The notes under the pieces are model-generated. The model saw nothing but the letters and a program-made list of their open reading frames with translations, searched no databases and was not told where the DNA came from. 41,622 bases of DNA, from NCBI GenBank assembly GCA_019192455.1, contig JAHCML010000003.1, positions 1,283,096 to 1,324,717 of the forward strand, given 5' to 3'. The position numbers were made by a program, and so were the translations under genes. The DNA comes from Alphaproteobacteria bacterium SS10 (GTDB lineage Bacteria; Pseudomonadota; Alphaproteobacteria; TMED2). This document shows, in pieces, positions 10,494 through 40,145 of the stretch (the stretch's first letter is position 1; every line of letters begins with the position of its first letter).

Positions 10494-10748
10494 TCAAGCA
10501 CTCTCTAATGCGGGGAACATACCGCGGAAGGCTTCAACGGCCAGGGTCCGCCGATCGGTCATCTCAATCCGACCATAGCGGCGCAGGCTGTAGCGGAATT
10601 GTACATGGGGGATACCGAAGGCATCTTGAGACACGCTCATCACCTCCGCCGTCTCTGTCAGGCCCGCTTGAATTGCCCTTTCATAGTGGCAGCCAATTCG
10701 TATTTCTTCCCGTGAATTGGACTTTCGTAAAATTTGTAGGAAATGCAT
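10494..10748 (-). CDS. Small protein of unknown function
   Basis: I do not recognise this 84-residue protein. It starts MHFLQILRKS and is basic in the first third. The core has CHYERAIQAGLTETAEVMSV and an FRYSLRRYGRIEM segment that look like a compact alpha/beta fold. There is no signal peptide, membrane helix or metal motif, and a single Cys near residue 20. The frame is open to 10781, but the internal ATG at 10748 has AGG about 10 bases upstream. It lies between nnr and tRNA-Leu on the same strand, with a possible terminator after it. The 5' end and upstream flank are notably AT-rich. It could be a conserved alphaproteobacterial hypothetical; being a real gene is likely but not proven. Confidence 0.55.
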   Translation of the reverse strand: MHFLQILRKSNSREEIRIGCHYERAIQAGLTETAEVMSVSQDAFGIPHVQFRYSLRRYGRIEMTDRRTLAVEAFRGMFPALESA

Positions 10749-10920
10749 TTTTCCCAACCTTGTAATACCTCGCTTAATCAAAGGGTTATTCGTTTTTCCT
10801 AGGCGTGCAACAATTTTAAATTCAGCTAATTTCGAAGCGAGTTTGGATAAAAATTGTAGCTATTTTTGTGTGAAATCGATGGGTTGGCCAACGCCACCCG
10901 GTGGCGTTCGAAAACTCCAA

Positions 10921-12399
10921 CTAAGCTTTTGAAATATTGAGTAATAAATCGTCTGCAATGACGCCTGCGGTTCCAGCGTCGGCCGCCCTCGCCGCCTCGG
11001 CATGGTTGTAAACGCCAGCAGCAGCGGCGGAAAAAGCAGACACCCTGCGGGCCAGATAGGCACCGATTATGCCCGCCAGCACATCCCCGGTGCCTGCAGT
11101 GGCAAGGGCTGGGGTGCCATTCGTATTGATCAAAACCCGCCCATCAGGCCCCGCAATCACGGTATCGGGCCCTTTCAGCACCAGAACCGCGCCCGACTTC
11201 TCAGCCGCAGCGAGAACCCGATCAATTCGTGTTCCCTGAAGCTCTGGGAACAAGCGGGCGAACTCACCCTCATGGGGTGTAAGAACCGTTTGCCCGGGCA
11301 GCTGTTTGAAGAGGGCATCCCCCTCACCGGCAAAGGCATTTAAGGCATCCGCGTCCAGAACGGTGGCGCCAACAGAGGCAAGACCACGCTCTACATACTC
11401 TTTGGGTGACGGCAGATCGGCCAAACCGGGGCCCATTACAACGCTATCGGGCCTAAACCGTTTGAGGCAGGCATCCCAGCTCTCCACCCCTTCGATCTCA
11501 GCGACCAATAGCGCGCGTTCCCGTTGTCTAAGTGACGGCGTGGCACTGGATGGCGCTGCAATGCCAACCAGCCCGGCACCAGCTCGAAGCCCTGCCCCAC
11601 CGGCTAAAGCGGCAGCGCCTGTCATCCAGGGGCCACCCAGAATCCATAGGCGCCCACGCTGATACTTGTGTTCAGCCATCTTGCGGTCAGGAATGTCAGA
11701 AGCCCAGCAATCGGGGTGGTTGAGGCCATAGAGCTGATCCGGCTCAGCAACATTGGCTGGGGTCAACCCTATCTCGGCGACCTCCAATAGGCCCGCTAGC
11801 TGGCGACCTGGTTGCAAGTAATGCCCGGGTTTTGGCCTAAAGAAGGTTACGGTCGCATCGGCCTTAACGGCAGCGCCACGAACGGCACCGGTTCGGCCAT
11901 CAACGCCACTCGGAATATCAATCGCGATCACGGTCGAACTAGCGTCGTTTATTGACTGCACGAGGCTGGCGGCATCGCCGCCCAAATCCTTGTTAAGCCC
12001 GGCACCGAACAACCCATCTATTATATAGGTGACATCCGGCAGTGCATTTGTGGCCAAGGGCACAGCGTGCCCCCAGGCGCTGATCGCTTTGCCGCGATCA
12101 CTATTGGGATCAGTAGATGGATCACCTGGTTCAATCGCTTCAGGCCAGGCCACGACCTCAACCCGCCATCCAGCCTCCCGCAGCTTTGCAGCCGCAACCA
12201 ACCCATCTGCACCATTATTCCCAGGCCCGCACACAACCAGCACGGGTCCCTTCGGATAGCCGAACATTAGATGCTGGGCGACGGCGCCACTGGCGGCCAA
12301 CATAAGGTCCCAGCTATCGCCACCCATGTCGACATAGCGGGCATCGGCCCGACCAGCCTGGTCAGGTGTCAGCAACCATTGGGTATCTGGGAAGGCCAT
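10921..12399 (-). CDS. nnr: Bifunctional NAD(P)H-hydrate epimerase / ADP-dependent NAD(P)H-hydrate dehydratase
   Basis: This metabolite-repair enzyme restores NADH and NADPH damaged by hydration: the N-terminal half epimerises R- and S-NAD(P)HX, the C-terminal half dehydrates the S form using ADP. The 492-residue chain has a YjeF_N domain at about 10-225 with GPGNNGADG at 58-66 and IDIPSGVDGR near 160-169. The ribokinase-like YjeF_C domain at about 235-490 has VMGPG at 321-325, LTPHEGEF at 373-380 and AGTGDVLAG at 435-443. Both halves keep their core motifs, so both activities are expected. It lies about 65 bases after tRNA-His on the same strand. The ribosome site is weak. Confidence 0.96.
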   Translation of the reverse strand: MAFPDTQWLLTPDQAGRADARYVDMGGDSWDLMLAASGAVAQHLMFGYPKGPVLVVCGPGNNGADGLVAAAKLREAGWRVEVVAWPEAIEPGDPSTDPNSDRGKAISAWGHAVPLATNALPDVTYIIDGLFGAGLNKDLGGDAASLVQSINDASSTVIAIDIPSGVDGRTGAVRGAAVKADATVTFFRPKPGHYLQPGRQLAGLLEVAEIGLTPANVAEPDQLYGLNHPDCWASDIPDRKMAEHKYQRGRLWILGGPWMTGAAALAGGAGLRAGAGLVGIAAPSSATPSLRQRERALLVAEIEGVESWDACLKRFRPDSVVMGPGLADLPSPKEYVERGLASVGATVLDADALNAFAGEGDALFKQLPGQTVLTPHEGEFARLFPELQGTRIDRVLAAAEKSGAVLVLKGPDTVIAGPDGRVLINTNGTPALATAGTGDVLAGIIGAYLARRVSAFSAAAAGVYNHAEAARAADAGTAGVIADDLLLNISKA

Positions 12400-12541: not shown

Positions 12542-13194
<653 letters not shown>

Positions 13195-13369
13195 CCCACC
13201 CTCTTTTTAGAATTCGACTGGCTGGCCGAACGCCCAATAGAGATGGGCCAGGCCACCCGAGCGGCGAAACGCGGGGGACGCCACTCACAAAAGCCAGACG
13301 ATCCCACTCCTCCCAGGCCGCGCGCTTAGCGGTCACATATCTCACCATTAAATGAAGGATGACGCCACC

Positions 13370-14779
13370 ATGGCAGACGTGAAGACGATCATGGAAATGA
13401 TCAAAGAGCACGACATCAAATTCGTGGATTTCCGCTTCAGCGATCCACGCGGGAAGATGCAGCACACCGCCCAGCATGTGAACACGATCGACGAAGAGAT
13501 GCTGACTGAAGGCGTGATGTTCGACGGCTCCTCGATCGCTGGTTGGAAGGCGATTAATGAGTCCGACATGATCCTCAAGCCGGACCTGTCCACCGCCCAT
13601 ATGGACCCGTTCTCAGCCCAGCCACTGCTGAACCTGTTCTGCGACGTTTACGAGCCATCCACTGGCCAGCCGTATGCCCGTGACCCACGCTCAACCGCTA
13701 AAGCTGCTGAAGCCTACCTCGCGTCCACCGGCATCGGTGACACCGCGTTCTTCGGCCCAGAGGCTGAGTTCTTCGTCTTTGACGACGTTCGCATGAAGGT
13801 CGACATGAACGAGATCAGCATCAAGCTGGACTCTGAAGAAGGCCCCTACGCCAGCGGCGACGAAATGGAAATGGGCAACATGGGTCACCGCCCAGGCGTT
13901 AAAGGCGGTTACTTCCCAGTGGCACCAGTCGACAGCATGAACGATCTCCGCGCTGAGATGGTTAGCACCCTCGACGAAATCGGCGTTCCAGTTGAGAAGC
14001 ACCACCACGAAGTTGCCCCATCTCAAAACGAGCTGGGTATCAAGTTCGACACCTTGGTGACCTGTGCTGACAACATGCAGCTCTATAAGTATGTGGTGCA
14101 CAACGTTGCCCATGCTTACGGCAAGTCGGCCACCTTCATGCCGAAGCCAATCTTCGGCGATAACGGTTCCGGCATGCACTGCCACCAGTCGATCTGGAAA
14201 GGCAATGAGCCAACTTTTGCTGGCTCTGGTTATGCCGATCTGTCTGAAACCGCCCTTTACTACATTGGCGGTATCATTAAGCACGCCCGCGCGCTGAACG
14301 CCTTCACCAACCCATCGACCAACAGCTACAAGCGTCTGGTCCCAGGTTATGAAGCACCAGTTCTGCTGGCTTACTCCTCACGGAACCGTTCTGCTTCTTG
14401 CCGGATCCCATATGTGACCAGCCCGAAAGCCAAGCGCGTTGAGGTTCGCTTCCCAGATGCGACCGCCAACCCATATCTGGCCTTCGCAGCTATGCTGATG
14501 GCTGGCCTCGACGGCATTCAGAACAAGATCCACCCTGGCGATGCCATGGACAAAAACCTGTACGACCTGCCAGCTGAAGAGCTGGAAGCCGTGCCGACTG
14601 TCTGCGGTAGCCTGCGTGAAGCAATCGAATCGCTGGCCGCAGATCACGAATTCCTGCTCAAAGGGGACGTGTTCAACAAGGATCAGATCGATGGCTACAT
14701 TGACCTGAAGATGGAAGAAGTTGAGGCATTCGAGACCATGCCACACCCCATCGAGTTCCAAATGTACTACAGCGCCTAA
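13370..14779 (+). CDS. glnA: Glutamine synthetase type I
   Basis: GlnA makes glutamine from glutamate, ammonia and ATP as a dodecamer and is the main entry point for ammonia. The 469-residue protein has the beta-grasp motif [11 protein letters not shown] near residues 52-62, [10 protein letters not shown], the ATP-site region [16 protein letters not shown], and NRSASCRIP. Tyr398 in [10 protein letters not shown] is the adenylylation site, so it is a regulated GSI-beta enzyme. The ATG at 13370 has AAGGA ten bases upstream; the in-frame ATG at 13352 has none. It lies 175 bases after glnB and ends at a terminator. The gap has an imperfect inverted repeat (TGGCTGGCC and GGGCCAGGCCA, about 13220-13257) that could tune expression, but this is weak. 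Confidence 0.98.
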
Positions 14780-34391: not shown

Positions 34392-35435
34392 TTGCCCGAT
34401 ACGATTTCAGCGCCCAGCCTAGAGTTCCCATGGGCGGAACGGCCAAATCCTCTAGAGCCGGTAGAGATTGCACCTGGCCTGCTCTGGCTTTGCCTGCCGC
34501 TGCCATTTGCCCTCAACCATGTAAATCTATGGTTGCTGGATGATGGTGATGGCTGGACCCTGATCGATACGGGCATTGATACGGATCACCTGCGCCAGGT
34601 CTGGAACGATCTGCTTGATGGGCCGCTCTCCGGGTTTCGGATCAACCGGATTATTGCCACACATTTCCATCCTGATCATGTGGGCCTGGCCGGTTGGTTA
34701 TGCGGTCGGTTTAGGGCCCCGCTTTTCATGCCGCGCACCGACTGGATGAAGGCGCGGTGGCTATCCCTCGACGACAGCGACCGGCTGGCTGCCAATGGCA
34801 CGGCCTTCTATCGCAAAGCCGGGGTTGAGGCTGAGGCACTGCTTGAGATCGGTAGCCGGGGTAATCTCTATGCCCGGCGGGTCAGTCCAATTCCCCGCAC
34901 CTACAACCGCCTGATTGATGGTGCAGTTATCAAGATGGGCGGCGGTGACTGGTCAATCATCACAACACCCGGCCACGCGCCAGAGATGACCTGTTTTCAC
35001 AGTGCTGAGCGGAAGATCTTCATCGCGGCCGACCATATCCTGCCTGAGATCAGCCCGAATGTTAGCGTCTGGGCGGATGAGCAGGAAGCCAACCCGCTTG
35101 ATGAGTTCCGCGACTCCCTCGCCAAGGTACGCGCACAAGTTTCCGATGAGTGCTTGGTTCTGCCAAGCCATGGTCGGCCGTTTAGGGGGCTCCATGCCCG
35201 CATCGACTGGTTAGCAGCTCACCATGAAGAGCGGCTGCGTTTCACCCTTGAGGCCTGTAAGGATCCATCCACCGGTAAAGAGGTGATGCTGCGCCTGTTC
35301 GACCGGCAGTTGGACCCCCATCAATGGGGCTTTGCCATGGGTGAGGCCCTGGCCCATCTGCACTGTCTGATGGCGAGTGGCGCCCTCACCCGCCAGATGG
35401 CAGATGATGGCGCCTATCGCTACCAAGCTGTCTAA
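34392..35435 (+). CDS. MBL-fold metallo-hydrolase
   Basis: The 347-residue cytoplasmic protein has the metallo-beta-lactamase motif THFHPDHVG with His91, His93, Asp95 and His96, further ligands in TTPGHAPEM, and LPSHGRPF, a set seen in LACTB2-like and glyoxalase II-like hydrolases. A C-terminal helical region (about 275-347) fits the winged-helix tail of LACTB2-like members. The start is TTG at 34392, supported by AGGGG eight bases upstream; no ATG in frame precedes the conserved N-terminus. It is divergent from putA (162 bases) and convergent with the TipN-like gene (9 bases). The substrate is not known. Confidence 0.92.
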   Translation: MPDTISAPSLEFPWAERPNPLEPVEIAPGLLWLCLPLPFALNHVNLWLLDDGDGWTLIDTGIDTDHLRQVWNDLLDGPLSGFRINRIIATHFHPDHVGLAGWLCGRFRAPLFMPRTDWMKARWLSLDDSDRLAANGTAFYRKAGVEAEALLEIGSRGNLYARRVSPIPRTYNRLIDGAVIKMGGGDWSIITTPGHAPEMTCFHSAERKIFIAADHILPEISPNVSVWADEQEANPLDEFRDSLAKVRAQVSDECLVLPSHGRPFRGLHARIDWLAAHHEERLRFTLEACKDPSTGKEVMLRLFDRQLDPHQWGFAMGEALAHLHCLMASGALTRQMADDGAYRYQAV

Positions 35436-35444
35436 CCCTGTTGG

Positions 35445-38400
35445 TTAGGCCTGGCCCTGGGCTGGCATTTTTTCGATGTCTTCATCGGAGAGCGGTTGAC
35501 GCTCAATGCCCTGGCAAAGCGCTAGATAGAGCTTACCGATATCTGAGGTCATGAAGGTTGAGCTCAGCAGATCACCGTGATCGGTGCTGATTGCCCGGCC
35601 AAACACTTCCTCGAACTGGCGGATATAGCGCTGAACATAGAGGCGGAATTCGCTGTTCTCTTCAAACAGCATCTTGATCTTACCAACCGCAATCTTGTCC
35701 TTGCTGGACACAAGGCGGCGGGTAAAGACGCTGGTGTCACCAGAAGCAAACGACTTCCAGAGGGCCTCAGGCGCTTCATCATCGAGCATCCGAACAAAGT
35801 CGACAGAGATTGAGTGTAGGCTCTCAATCACGAATTTCGCGGCCGCCAGGAAGGCGTCACGCTGGGCCTCAGAGTCCGTATCCTTGATCAGCTTGGCCTG
35901 CTCCATTGCCTTCTCTGCCGCCTCGGCAAGAGCCTCGGCATGGCGACGGAAGGTATCGGACACATCGCTCGACTTGGTCGACGCGCTGTCGGCGGCCTCC
36001 ATAAGCTTCTCAGAATGGCGGGACACGCTAGAGCTTGCACCCTCAAGTGACTTCACAACCCGGTCGGTACGATCACCCAGTTCTTGTAGGCGGATACCGA
36101 GGCTGATCGTGCTGTCTTCCAGGCGGTTCAGCGTGGCGTCATAGGCAGCAGCGAAGTTGGCCCGCTGCTCCATCATCTTGTTCTCAATCTGGCCAATCCG
36201 GATGAACACCGTCTCGGTTGATGTCACGAACTGGTTCGACTGGTTGCTAAGTGACATGCGAACACTGTCGAGCTGGCTAACCTGATCATTTGTCTGGTTA
36301 AGCACACCGTCGAGGTCGGAGCGCAGCTCACCAAGCGCGCCATTCAGCTTATTCACCGTCTCATCGGCCATATCGTTGATCTGGCTGACTTCCTCGACCA
36401 AGGCTTGGCCTAGGCCACGTAGGCGTTCGGTATTGCCCTCGGCACCTTCGCTGAGTTGATCCAGATAGGTGCGCAGACGCTCCTCAACCGAACCAAACTC
36501 ACCAAGCGCATCGCCCAAGGTGTCGTTCAGGAAGTTCAGGCGACCTTGCAGACCCTTGCTGAGGTTATCAACCCGCTGACCCGTACGGTCGACCAGGGCA
36601 TCAACGTCATCCAGCTTCTCACCCAACTGATCAGACAACGCCTGAACCTTCTCAAGAACCTCATCCGGCTTACCGGTGATGTTGGCCATCTCACGGTCGA
36701 AGGTTGCTGCAATAGATGCCAGACGCTCACCGGCGAGATCCGAAGATTCTTGCAGTTCAGCGAGCTTGCCGGACAGATCGCCCTCAATATCACCAATGCG
36801 GTTAAGCGATTTGCCAACCAGGGCATCGGCCTCGGTCACCGTCTCGGTCAAACGCGAGGACACGGCGTTCAGGTTGTCGAGGGTCATGCGTGACAGCTCG
36901 CCCAGATCGCCACCACGCTTGGAGAAGTTAGTGATGATGTCGTCCATATCGGACTGGACACGCTGCATACCGGATTTCAGCTCGCCAATTTGCTCGCTGA
37001 TCTTCGTACCGATGCGGTTAACCCGCGCCTCGGTCTCCGCGGCACCGGAGCGCAGAACCTCAAGCTCATCAGCGACGCGCTTGCTGGCAACGCCCAAGTT
37101 CTCGGCGACGGTCTCACCCACCTGATTGATTTGCTCAGCTTGATTATCCAAACCGGCAGAGGCTTGGTTGACCTGGGAAACAGCATCGTTAGCCGCCTCA
37201 CCAAGCGCCAGCGCCTCACGGGACAAGCTATCCCGCATGGAGGTTAGCTGCTCCAGAGCACCATTGGTCAGGGCGGTCAGCTTGTTCACCTCTTCGCCCA
37301 GATTGTCGTTCATGGCTTGGCTGCTGCCGAGCAGATGCTTGGAGAGTTGATCGACACGCTCTTCCTGACCATCCAGGGTCGCGACAAAGCTTTCGGCCTC
37401 GACCTTGGTCTGTTCACCGGCCTCTTGAAGTTTCGCGATAGACTCAGACAGCTGATCGACGACGAGGTCACTGGTCCCTTTAGCATTCTCACCAGCAGCA
37501 CGAACCCGCTCAGCCTGGGCCACAAGGGTTGCATCCAGACTACGCAGATCACCGAGGCGGGCATTGAGCTCTTCTTCAATGCCACGCAACGTGGCGGTCT
37601 GACTTTCCGTATCGCTGTTGGCGTCCTTCAAGGCGTCGGTCGCGGTGTTCAGATCACCGGTAAGTTGCTGGGTTGCCCCCGCTGCTTTGGCCAGGGTGGT
37701 TGCCGTCTCACCAATCTCACCACGCATGGCGATGAACTTCTCAGTCAGGGCCACCGTGGCTTCACGCAATGCCTCGATAGTCTGGCTCGACTGCTCATTG
37801 ACCTGGTCGCCGTTCACCTTGGCATCGGCCATGGCCTTCTGAACCCGGGCCACCTGGTCTTCAATCTTCGCGGCCAGGCCATCAACGACAGATGATGCAT
37901 TGCCATGTGCTGCTTCAAATGCGGTCAACTGACGACGCATCATTTCATTAGCGGCACGCATGCCCTTAGCCGACTGAATAGCGGCAGTCCGCAACAGGTC
38001 CGCATTCCGGCCCAATGGAACCGCGAGGCTCTCAGCCAGTGTTGAAGCGTTCTCAGCCAGGATTTTGTAGTCGTCGACACGGCGGCCCAGGGCAGCCTCG
38101 GCGTCGGTTAGACGATCCGTGATGGTTTGGGTCGTCTCTTCCACCTTGCTGAATTGACCAGCGGTGGACTCCCGCGCCTGCTCCAACTTCTCTTGGAAGG
38201 TATCGGCTGCGGTGCCAAGCTCATCGACCATGCCGCTTACCTGGACCTTAAGGTCACCGGTACGGCCCTCAAGCGAGTTCAGAATGGCGGCGGTCTGCTC
38301 TTCAGTATTATTGGCCTGATCACGAAGCAGGCCAATCGCCTCATCAATCCCGGCACTTTGCTCTCGAAGGAATGAGCCAACCCGGTCCACCTCACCCGCA

Positions 38401-38936
38401 CTACGGGCGGAGACAGCAGTGAGTGCTTCGGTTTCATGGCGGAGGGATTGGCGTGCCTGATCAATCCGGCTGATCGCTAGATTGGTGGCATCGGCGAGCA
38501 TTTTGACCTGACGGTCCGTTGCCTCCGTAATCGCTTGCAGGCGGGCCTCAGCCTTATCAACCGGCATGGTGATCTGGGCGGAGGTTTTGCGGAGTGCTTC
38601 AGCAACTGTTCGCTGATCGGCATTGCGCTGAATGAACAGGGCAATCAGCCATAGAACGGCAAGCGGTGCGATACCGACGCTGAACTGGCTAATGATCTCC
38701 AAAACCGGGGTGGTCTGAAGGTCTAGACCTTGTTGAACCAGGAGGTAGCCGAGGCCACCAACCCAACCAATGCTGACCAACAGTGATAACCAACCAAACA
38801 GACGCGGCAGCAACGGGCGCTTCACCTCAATCACGGCTGGGGCAGATTGTGGAAGGTAAGAGACACCACCACGCGCACGTGGGTGGGTTGCTGCCAACGC
38901 TTCATCACGCATCGGCGTATTGATCGTCTCGGTCAT
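35445..38936 (-). CDS. Large coiled-coil membrane protein, TipN-like
   Basis: The 1163-residue protein has a cytoplasmic start of about 45 residues and two membrane helices at about 46-67 and 83-102. A very long helical part from about 110 to 1020, rich in Glu, Gln, Ser, Thr and heptad-like Leu/Val, follows. The end (about 1020-1163) looks globular, with APEALWKSF, FTRRLVSSKD, LYVQRYIRQFEEVF and SSDIGKLYLAL-like segments (SSTFMTSDIGKLYLAL). Two N-terminal membrane helices plus a huge coiled coil match Caulobacter TipN, a new-pole landmark that guides polarity and flagellum placement. The call is by architecture, not shared residues. Alternatives are an MCP-like or kinesin-like coiled coil of unknown role; no signalling hairpin of a chemoreceptor is seen. 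Confidence 0.75.
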   Translation of the reverse strand: MTETINTPMRDEALAATHPRARGGVSYLPQSAPAVIEVKRPLLPRLFGWLSLLVSIGWVGGLGYLLVQQGLDLQTTPVLEIISQFSVGIAPLAVLWLIALFIQRNADQRTVAEALRKTSAQITMPVDKAEARLQAITEATDRQVKMLADATNLAISRIDQARQSLRHETEALTAVSARSAGEVDRVGSFLREQSAGIDEAIGLLRDQANNTEEQTAAILNSLEGRTGDLKVQVSGMVDELGTAADTFQEKLEQARESTAGQFSKVEETTQTITDRLTDAEAALGRRVDDYKILAENASTLAESLAVPLGRNADLLRTAAIQSAKGMRAANEMMRRQLTAFEAAHGNASSVVDGLAAKIEDQVARVQKAMADAKVNGDQVNEQSSQTIEALREATVALTEKFIAMRGEIGETATTLAKAAGATQQLTGDLNTATDALKDANSDTESQTATLRGIEEELNARLGDLRSLDATLVAQAERVRAAGENAKGTSDLVVDQLSESIAKLQEAGEQTKVEAESFVATLDGQEERVDQLSKHLLGSSQAMNDNLGEEVNKLTALTNGALEQLTSMRDSLSREALALGEAANDAVSQVNQASAGLDNQAEQINQVGETVAENLGVASKRVADELEVLRSGAAETEARVNRIGTKISEQIGELKSGMQRVQSDMDDIITNFSKRGGDLGELSRMTLDNLNAVSSRLTETVTEADALVGKSLNRIGDIEGDLSGKLAELQESSDLAGERLASIAATFDREMANITGKPDEVLEKVQALSDQLGEKLDDVDALVDRTGQRVDNLSKGLQGRLNFLNDTLGDALGEFGSVEERLRTYLDQLSEGAEGNTERLRGLGQALVEEVSQINDMADETVNKLNGALGELRSDLDGVLNQTNDQVSQLDSVRMSLSNQSNQFVTSTETVFIRIGQIENKMMEQRANFAAAYDATLNRLEDSTISLGIRLQELGDRTDRVVKSLEGASSSVSRHSEKLMEAADSASTKSSDVSDTFRRHAEALAEAAEKAMEQAKLIKDTDSEAQRDAFLAAAKFVIESLHSISVDFVRMLDDEAPEALWKSFASGDTSVFTRRLVSSKDKIAVGKIKMLFEENSEFRLYVQRYIRQFEEVFGRAISTDHGDLLSSTFMTSDIGKLYLALCQGIERQPLSDEDIEKMPAQGQA

Positions 38937-39233: not shown

Positions 39234-39788
39234 TTACTCGGCGGTGCTAGATGCCACTGCCTCTTGGGTGCAAAGCGGGCGACTGGTCACCGCGGCTTCA
39301 GGTGCGGTGGTCAGGATCGCTTTAAGCGGTTTGCTGTTAAATTGCGGGGCGCCCTCAAGGGCCTCCAACATCTCGCCCTTATTGCTGCAATAGATCTCAG
39401 CAGAGCTGTAGGCCGCACGGGTCGATACAGCATTGGCGATGGATGTCCGCCAATGGTCAAAGCGACGCTTGGCATTCCCCTCAGCATGCTTTGCGAAGTA
39501 ACCGATCATCGCCTCTTCATGGGCCACGATGTCGGCACGGTGTTGATTCGTAAACTTGGCATACCGGACGAAAAGCGCCGGGTCGTTAAACTGTGCGGCA
39601 CAGGTTAAGCCAACCACCATCAACTCCGAATGCAGGCGAATTGCCTGTTCCGCTGCGGCTTCCTTCGCGGAGTAACAGGTGGCAAGCGCCTGCCCGGCAA
39701 AGCCCAGGGTGGCAATGGTTGTGATCGCAATAGAGGCAAGGCGACGAAGCTGTCGCGGCAGGTTTACAGAACTTGGTCCAGAAAACAT
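39234..39788 (-). CDS. Secreted four-cysteine protein of unknown function
   Basis: The 184-residue protein has a signal peptide (RQLRRLASIAITTIATLGFAGQALA, split here as n-region RQLRR and a hydrophobic core to residue 36) with cleavage before TCYS. The mature part is mostly helical and has four Cys (38, 63, 134, 173), enough for two disulfides. Segments such as RLHSELMVVGLTC and FVRYAKFTNQHRADI look conserved, and a Thr/Ala-rich tail ends the chain. The ATG at 39788 has AGGAAG seven bases upstream, so the longer frame to 39899 is not used. It stands alone with its own terminator and is divergent from mak. I do not know its function. Confidence 0.85.
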   Translation of the reverse strand: MFSGPSSVNLPRQLRRLASIAITTIATLGFAGQALATCYSAKEAAAEQAIRLHSELMVVGLTCAAQFNDPALFVRYAKFTNQHRADIVAHEEAMIGYFAKHAEGNAKRRFDHWRTSIANAVSTRAAYSSAEIYCSNKGEMLEALEGAPQFNSKPLKAILTTAPEAAVTSRPLCTQEAVASSTAE

Positions 39789-40145
39789 GGATGGCTTCCT
39801 GTTTGTTGAGGCCAATCGAAACAACCGCGCTTGCAGATCGAGACAACCAAAATGTCCCGCAGCTATCGCCGTCGGTTTAGGCGTGAATGGTGCCCCCACC
39901 CGCCTAAATTGGACCCGGAGTGTGCCGCAAAGCCGTCAAATTTGGCAACCGAATATGACCATGGTTATTCAAAACAGCTGTGCATGCCCTGGGGGGAAAT
40001 CTTAACCGCATCTGGCACACCGGTGCTTGCAACCATGCCCCGCATCGGCTTTAACGAGCGCCGGTTTGCCGTTGGCCACCAAGAGGGCCCTCGGCTCGCA
40101 AACCAGCGCATCACCGTTAGATATAAAGACATAAAAGAACGACCG
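39789..40145. other. Divergent intergenic region between the four-cysteine gene and mak
   Basis: This 357-base gap must hold both promoters. The mak frame stays open upstream to 39831, but those residues have no kinase similarity and no ribosome site was seen for them. I checked for a sigma-54 site at TGGCAC (40013) and the spacing is wrong. No RNA gene or repeat is visible. Confidence 0.45.

Follow-up and report, generated by a model that had tools for sequence, protein, structure and literature searches.

A long coiled-coil membrane protein of an alphaproteobacterium as an ordinary-length member of the TipN/GPR/RgsE family

Introduction

The window, that is, the whole 41,622-nucleotide stretch of the genome of Alphaproteobacteria bacterium SS10 analysed here, encodes a long membrane protein described in its initial annotation as a TipN-like polarity factor of unusual length located outside a polarity locus. 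The locus raises the question of whether this likeness to TipN is one of descent or of layout only, and what follows from the answer for the role of the protein. TipN and the GPR/RgsE proteins have mostly been studied as different proteins. GPR is credited with "similarity to" TipN in the available text of one paper (PMC8546619), and the two are called analogous in that of another (PMC13170164). No description of a C-terminal domain (CTD) common to TipN and GPR/RgsE was found in the parts of the literature covered, and a literature search pairing TipN with RgsE returned nothing.

The gene and the layout of its product

The gene occurs as a single copy in its own genome, and the features of its product are collected in Table 1. 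The layout proposed initially was confirmed: the protein has two N-terminal membrane helices, a long rod of about 890 residues and, within its last 140 residues, a compact and conserved C-terminal domain. The net charge around the membrane hairpin is +2 on each flank and -1 in the loop, and both ends of the protein are therefore predicted to be cytoplasmic. The rod has a hydrophobic period of 3.57 residues (25/7; 3.566), with a spectral power of 80, compared with no more than 12.7 among 200 shuffled versions, and a lag-25 autocorrelation of 0.41 versus at most 0.07 in the shuffled sequences; its hydrophobic positions are read as a succession of 11+7+7 residues.

Table 1. Features of the family gene and of its two neighbours in the window
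Feature	Position in the window	Strand	Basis
TipN/GPR/RgsE-family gene	35445..38936	-	ORF, 1163 aa
Membrane helix 1, about residues 46-68	38733..38801	-	Hydropathy; hairpin module aligns with TipN
Membrane helix 2, about residues 77-105	38622..38708	-	Hydropathy; hairpin module aligns with TipN
Rod, residues 121-1010, 25-residue (7+7+11) hydrophobic repeat	35907..38576	-	Hydrophobic periodicity
Conserved CTD, about residues 1022-1147, predicted all-helical	35496..35873	-	Profile searches, model
MBL-fold hydrolase gene	34392-35435	+	
Gene of a 221-aa protein	39234-39899	-	

Relationship to TipN

The CTD alone gave matches in 15 of the 40 genomes sampled as relatives. Weak matches of its 15-row alignment A1, which contains no rows from families f61 (Caulobacteraceae) or f23, to members of f61 prompted a separate search with the CTD of that family, which was positive in 37 of 40 genomes. 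A profile search of the genome contigs with the f61 CTDs (alignment A2) then yielded 80 loci, mainly from Caulobacter and Phenylobacterium. Among the homologues is a protein of Caulobacter vibrioides DSM 9893 (L121) of 882 aa counted from the first ATG, with two membrane helices, a rod and the CTD. Since C. crescentus TipN is likewise stated to be 882 aa long (PMC13170164, available text), this protein can be identified as TipN by species, length and layout, though not by accession. It has no match in Pfam or NCBIfam at E 0.01.

The two sides find each other in profile searches: A1, with zero Caulobacteraceae rows, recovers the C. vibrioides TipN with E 3.6e-10, and the TipN-side profile A2 recovers many members from outside the Caulobacteraceae, with values down to E 1.2e-14. 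When the two CTD alignments were compared directly with hhalign, they matched over 119 columns with a probability of 98.5% (E 3.7e-15); none of 40 column shuffles exceeded 1.2%, and reversing the alignment gave 0.2%. The pairwise identity of the CTD of the window protein with those of TipN is low, about 17%, which counts against the relation. The membrane end behaves in the same way. For the hairpin with the following helix, 37 rows from outside the Caulobacteraceae, from which six loci (three short f23 proteins, L063, L069 and L203) had been omitted beforehand, were compared with 20 Caulobacteraceae rows; the match extended over 131 columns at 98.7% (E 1.6e-16), and the hairpin helices alone gave 93.6%, the maxima in shuffles being 0.4% for the module and 0.6% for the helices only. 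The suspected relation to TipN is thus supported: a profile search restricted to the CTD bears it out, and so does the membrane end.

Like TipN, the window protein has a two-helix N-terminal hairpin, a cytoplasmic rod and the homologous CTD at the extreme C-terminus, and both are single-copy. In TipN, by contrast, the hairpin is preceded by a Pro/Ala-rich leader of at least about 100 residues, and the rod is shorter and less regular, with a period of about 3.59. In the CTD tree the TipN domains form a separate, long-branched clade (100/100) with the window CTD outside it, so the window protein is not a TipN in the strict, Caulobacteraceae sense.

The AlphaFold2 models of the CTDs of TipN (37 rows, pLDDT 87, pTM 0.79) and of the window protein (33 rows, pLDDT 83, pTM 0.76) are both nearly all helical, with the helices in the same order; as the window model was built with TipN rows only, this agreement is not independent evidence of kinship. 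None of the 43 matches of the TipN model in a Foldseek search of the PDB reached E <=0.001, and VIA-align gave a best Z of 3.5, or 4.9 for the window model, with no convincing PDB match. At the sequence level, the CTD taken alone (a 181-aa fragment) matched nothing in Pfam or NCBIfam and nothing below E 0.09 among PDB sequences. Weak hints of annexin (alignment A3 versus annexin VI, E 0.19; one A1 member versus PF00191, E 0.074) received no support from the fold searches and were set aside. In the libraries searched (Pfam, NCBIfam and PDB), the CTD is indeed, as had been suggested, a domain without a described family.

Relationship to GPR and RgsE

A tblastn search of a plasmid collection with the CTD of the window protein returned six records, one each from Sphingomonas and Shinella and four from Sinorhizobium. 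The S. meliloti match (E 3e-18, 36.8% identity) lies in a coding sequence annotated as "kinesin", of 6270 bases or 2089 aa. The published length of RgsE, a homologue of the 2115-aa GPR of Agrobacterium, is also 2089 aa (PMC7327166, available text), and the S. meliloti protein can be identified as RgsE by species, length and layout rather than by accession. The presence of the CTD in RgsE makes the kinship wider than TipN. One of the Sinorhizobium replicons with such a gene, "pSymB" of S. meliloti Ak57 (L194, CP090106.1), is 3.72 Mb long, carries cytochrome bc1 and folP as well as the RgsE-type gene, and looks like a mislabelled chromosome.

GPR of Agrobacterium and RgsE of Sinorhizobium and Brucella share the hairpin, the rod and the CTD with the window protein, the RgsE CTD being 37% identical to that of the latter. 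They differ from it in their length of about 2100 aa, in the 11-residue periodicity of the rod (3.65-3.67) and in matching the Pfam Apolipoprotein model (PF01442), which recognises the RgsE rod and does not match the window protein. Most lineages, that of the window included, have a rod period of about 3.57 with a 25-residue repeat, while in the Rhizobiales-type rows (L194, L196, L213, L214 and L215) the period is 3.65-3.67 and the repeat 11 residues, the ends of the proteins still being conserved. An 11-residue rod of the Rhizobiales type agrees with the Apolipoprotein match to RgsE and with its absence from the window protein. With a period of 3.566, 1163 aa and no PF01442 match, the window protein falls outside GPR/RgsE in the strict, Rhizobiales sense as well. 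It is, by its TipN-homologous hairpin, its CTD, its long rod and its single copy per genome, a member of the broader TipN/GPR/RgsE family.

Extent and variability of the family

Of 387 alphaproteobacterial genomes, 152 match profile A1, 147 of these with a single match, and 158 match the 54-row profile A6; in the remaining 229 of the 387 the latter profile detects no CTD, indicating that the role of the protein is dispensable, or unrecognised, in many genomes. In a sample of the phylum, 114 of 397 genomes match and all the matches listed belong to the class of the window, the number of genomes drawn from other classes not being given; a restriction of the domain to this class is therefore not claimed. 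No relative was found in the viral contigs searched. This is a class-wide alphaproteobacterial family, mostly single-copy, in which the ends are conserved and the length of the rod varies greatly.

The 63 homologues measured, a non-random sample of which about a third (20) are from Caulobacteraceae, span 324-2743 aa; 43 of them fall short of the window protein in length and 19 exceed it. Its 1163 aa are therefore ordinary for the family, and the unusual length claimed initially did not hold: the protein is literally longer than TipN (1163 versus 882 aa), which does not mark it as exceptional in size within the family. At least two membrane segments are predicted within the first 400 residues in 60 of the 63, the exceptions at this threshold being L063, L069 and L203, and, L069 apart, every protein has its CTD at the extreme C-terminus or close to it. 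The L069 frame, of 930 aa, carries the CTD midway, followed by 408 residues with a transporter-like membrane region, and lacks the N-terminal hairpin; this is possibly a broken or fused gene. At the other extreme, three f23 proteins (L055, L056 and L057) of 324-348 aa consist of the hairpin and a divergent CTD and are almost rodless.

In the CTD tree the window protein groups with L072 (f41), L071 (f15) and L212 (f126) with support of 98/92; these three resemble it in belonging to the same clade, in their length of 1029-1253 aa and, all three, in the rod period of 3.57, and differ in coming from other genomes with partly other neighbours. Support for the deep forks of the tree is weak, too weak to place TipN relative to GPR, and TipN sits on a long branch.

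Gene neighbourhood

The window gene and the gene of an MBL-fold hydrolase are convergent, tail to tail, with their ends 9 bases apart; putA lies beyond the latter. The same arrangement is found in L071 (MBL-fold hydrolase gene at 10505-11533, -). As a functional lead this neighbour was rejected, since among the homologues it is adjacent in L071 only, and in L055 and L057 it lies about 3-7 kb away. Upstream of the window gene is the gene of a 221-aa protein that probably carries a signal peptide and matches nothing in Pfam; a relative of this protein (31% over 162 residues) is encoded near the L212 homologue (12887-13372, -).

In 12 of the 63 loci a small gene of a single-domain histidine phosphotransferase (Hpt) is located divergently upstream of the family gene (L061, L062, L063, L074, L194, L195, L196, L201, L213, L214, L215 and L218), and in L105 an Hpt gene lies 3.2 kb from it. 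Of these 13 loci, 7 supplied the sequences of the Hpt profile, with which the remaining 6 were then detected. No Hpt gene was found beside the window gene or the tipN of C. vibrioides. The neighbours of the latter, named from their Pfam domains, are metG, genes of an MFS transporter and a sugar transferase, and a cysN/C-type gene. A position outside a polarity locus, noted initially as a distinguishing point, is consequently not one, as tipN of C. vibrioides also has no polarity locus around it. The genome of the window encodes MreB, TolQ and a DUF2497 protein, which we take to be PopZ.

Possible role of the protein

The product of the window gene probably helps to mark or organise a cell pole, by analogy with its characterised relatives. 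TipN interacts with Tol-Pal (PMC7403779), Tol-Pal is required for the polar localisation of TipN (PMC7391070), and two-hybrid tests detected an interaction between RgsE and TolQ (PMC7327166), each according to the available text. Loss of the last 221 residues abolishes the function of GPR, the last 10 matter for cell shape, and GPR lacking the last 332 residues still forms paired foci, i.e., rings, as described in the accessible part of PMC8262873. If the CTD of GPR is placed as that of RgsE, it is required for function but dispensable for the assembly of rings, in keeping with an end that binds a partner.

The reading that we favour, and regard as reasonably probable, is that of a TipN/GPR/RgsE-family member of ordinary length acting as a landmark or scaffold of the new pole, with Tol-Pal perhaps recruiting it. 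The two-helix hairpin would anchor the protein in the inner membrane, both ends being predicted to lie in the cytoplasm; the long rod with its 25-residue repeat would self-associate and keep the CTD end away from the membrane; and the C-terminal helical domain would, as the analogy with GPR suggests, bind a partner. Judging from TipN and RgsE, the protein would most likely be recruited at a late stage to the division site, perhaps via Tol-Pal, and be left at the new pole, where it would present its CTD.

The main competitor, which we consider unlikely but deserving of attention, accepts common descent with TipN and GPR and sees in the window protein an envelope or division protein of the inner membrane with a general role, for instance a Tol-Pal-linked factor confined to the septum, the polar roles having been derived separately in Caulobacter and the Rhizobiales. 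GPR acts in polar growth and TipN in polarity, so that function is not simply transferable between them, and the different jobs of RgsE/GPR and TipN, though both are described as touching Tol-Pal, speak for this explanation, as does MreB in the genome of the window, with which a polar elongation scaffold of the GPR type would not be needed. The characterised proteins, TipN, GPR and RgsE (S. meliloti, Brucella), are all polar according to the available texts, which argues against it. That the window protein is instead an unrelated long coiled-coil membrane protein, like the tail of a ZorA motor, an SMC or an MCE protein, and resembles TipN in layout only, is very improbable. The full-length protein does match the SMC, ZorA and MCE models, along with Baculo_PEP_C and ApoLp-III, but all these matches fall within the coiled coil and below the cut-offs, those to SMC (45.8 against 567 bits) and ZorA (31.5 against 190 bits) far under the curated values, and are to be regarded as spurious; the CTD alone matches none of the SMC, ZorA and MCE models, and both ends of the protein match TipN under strong shuffle controls. 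The comparisons of the CTD and the hairpin thus disfavour a resemblance of layout only.

Beyond the landmark or scaffold role favoured for the window protein, a broader and more doubtful proposal can be made for the family. The CTD and the hairpin may represent one ancient alphaproteobacterial division or pole-tethering protein, the ancestor of TipN and GPR/RgsE, whose conserved job would be to dock, at the new pole, a partner linked to Tol-Pal. The rod would then be an exchangeable spacer, with its length (from almost none to more than 2000 residues) and its repeat (25 versus 11) retuned by lineage, and the divergent single-domain Hpt encoded next to it in many lineages would feed phosphorelay signals to the protein.

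Significance

The window protein is one ordinary example of a family with a shared CTD and hairpin. Defined in this way, the two modules make a short query with which a homologue can be found in a new genome. The defined ends also suggest which end to mutate, and Tol-Pal as a conserved partner becomes directly testable.
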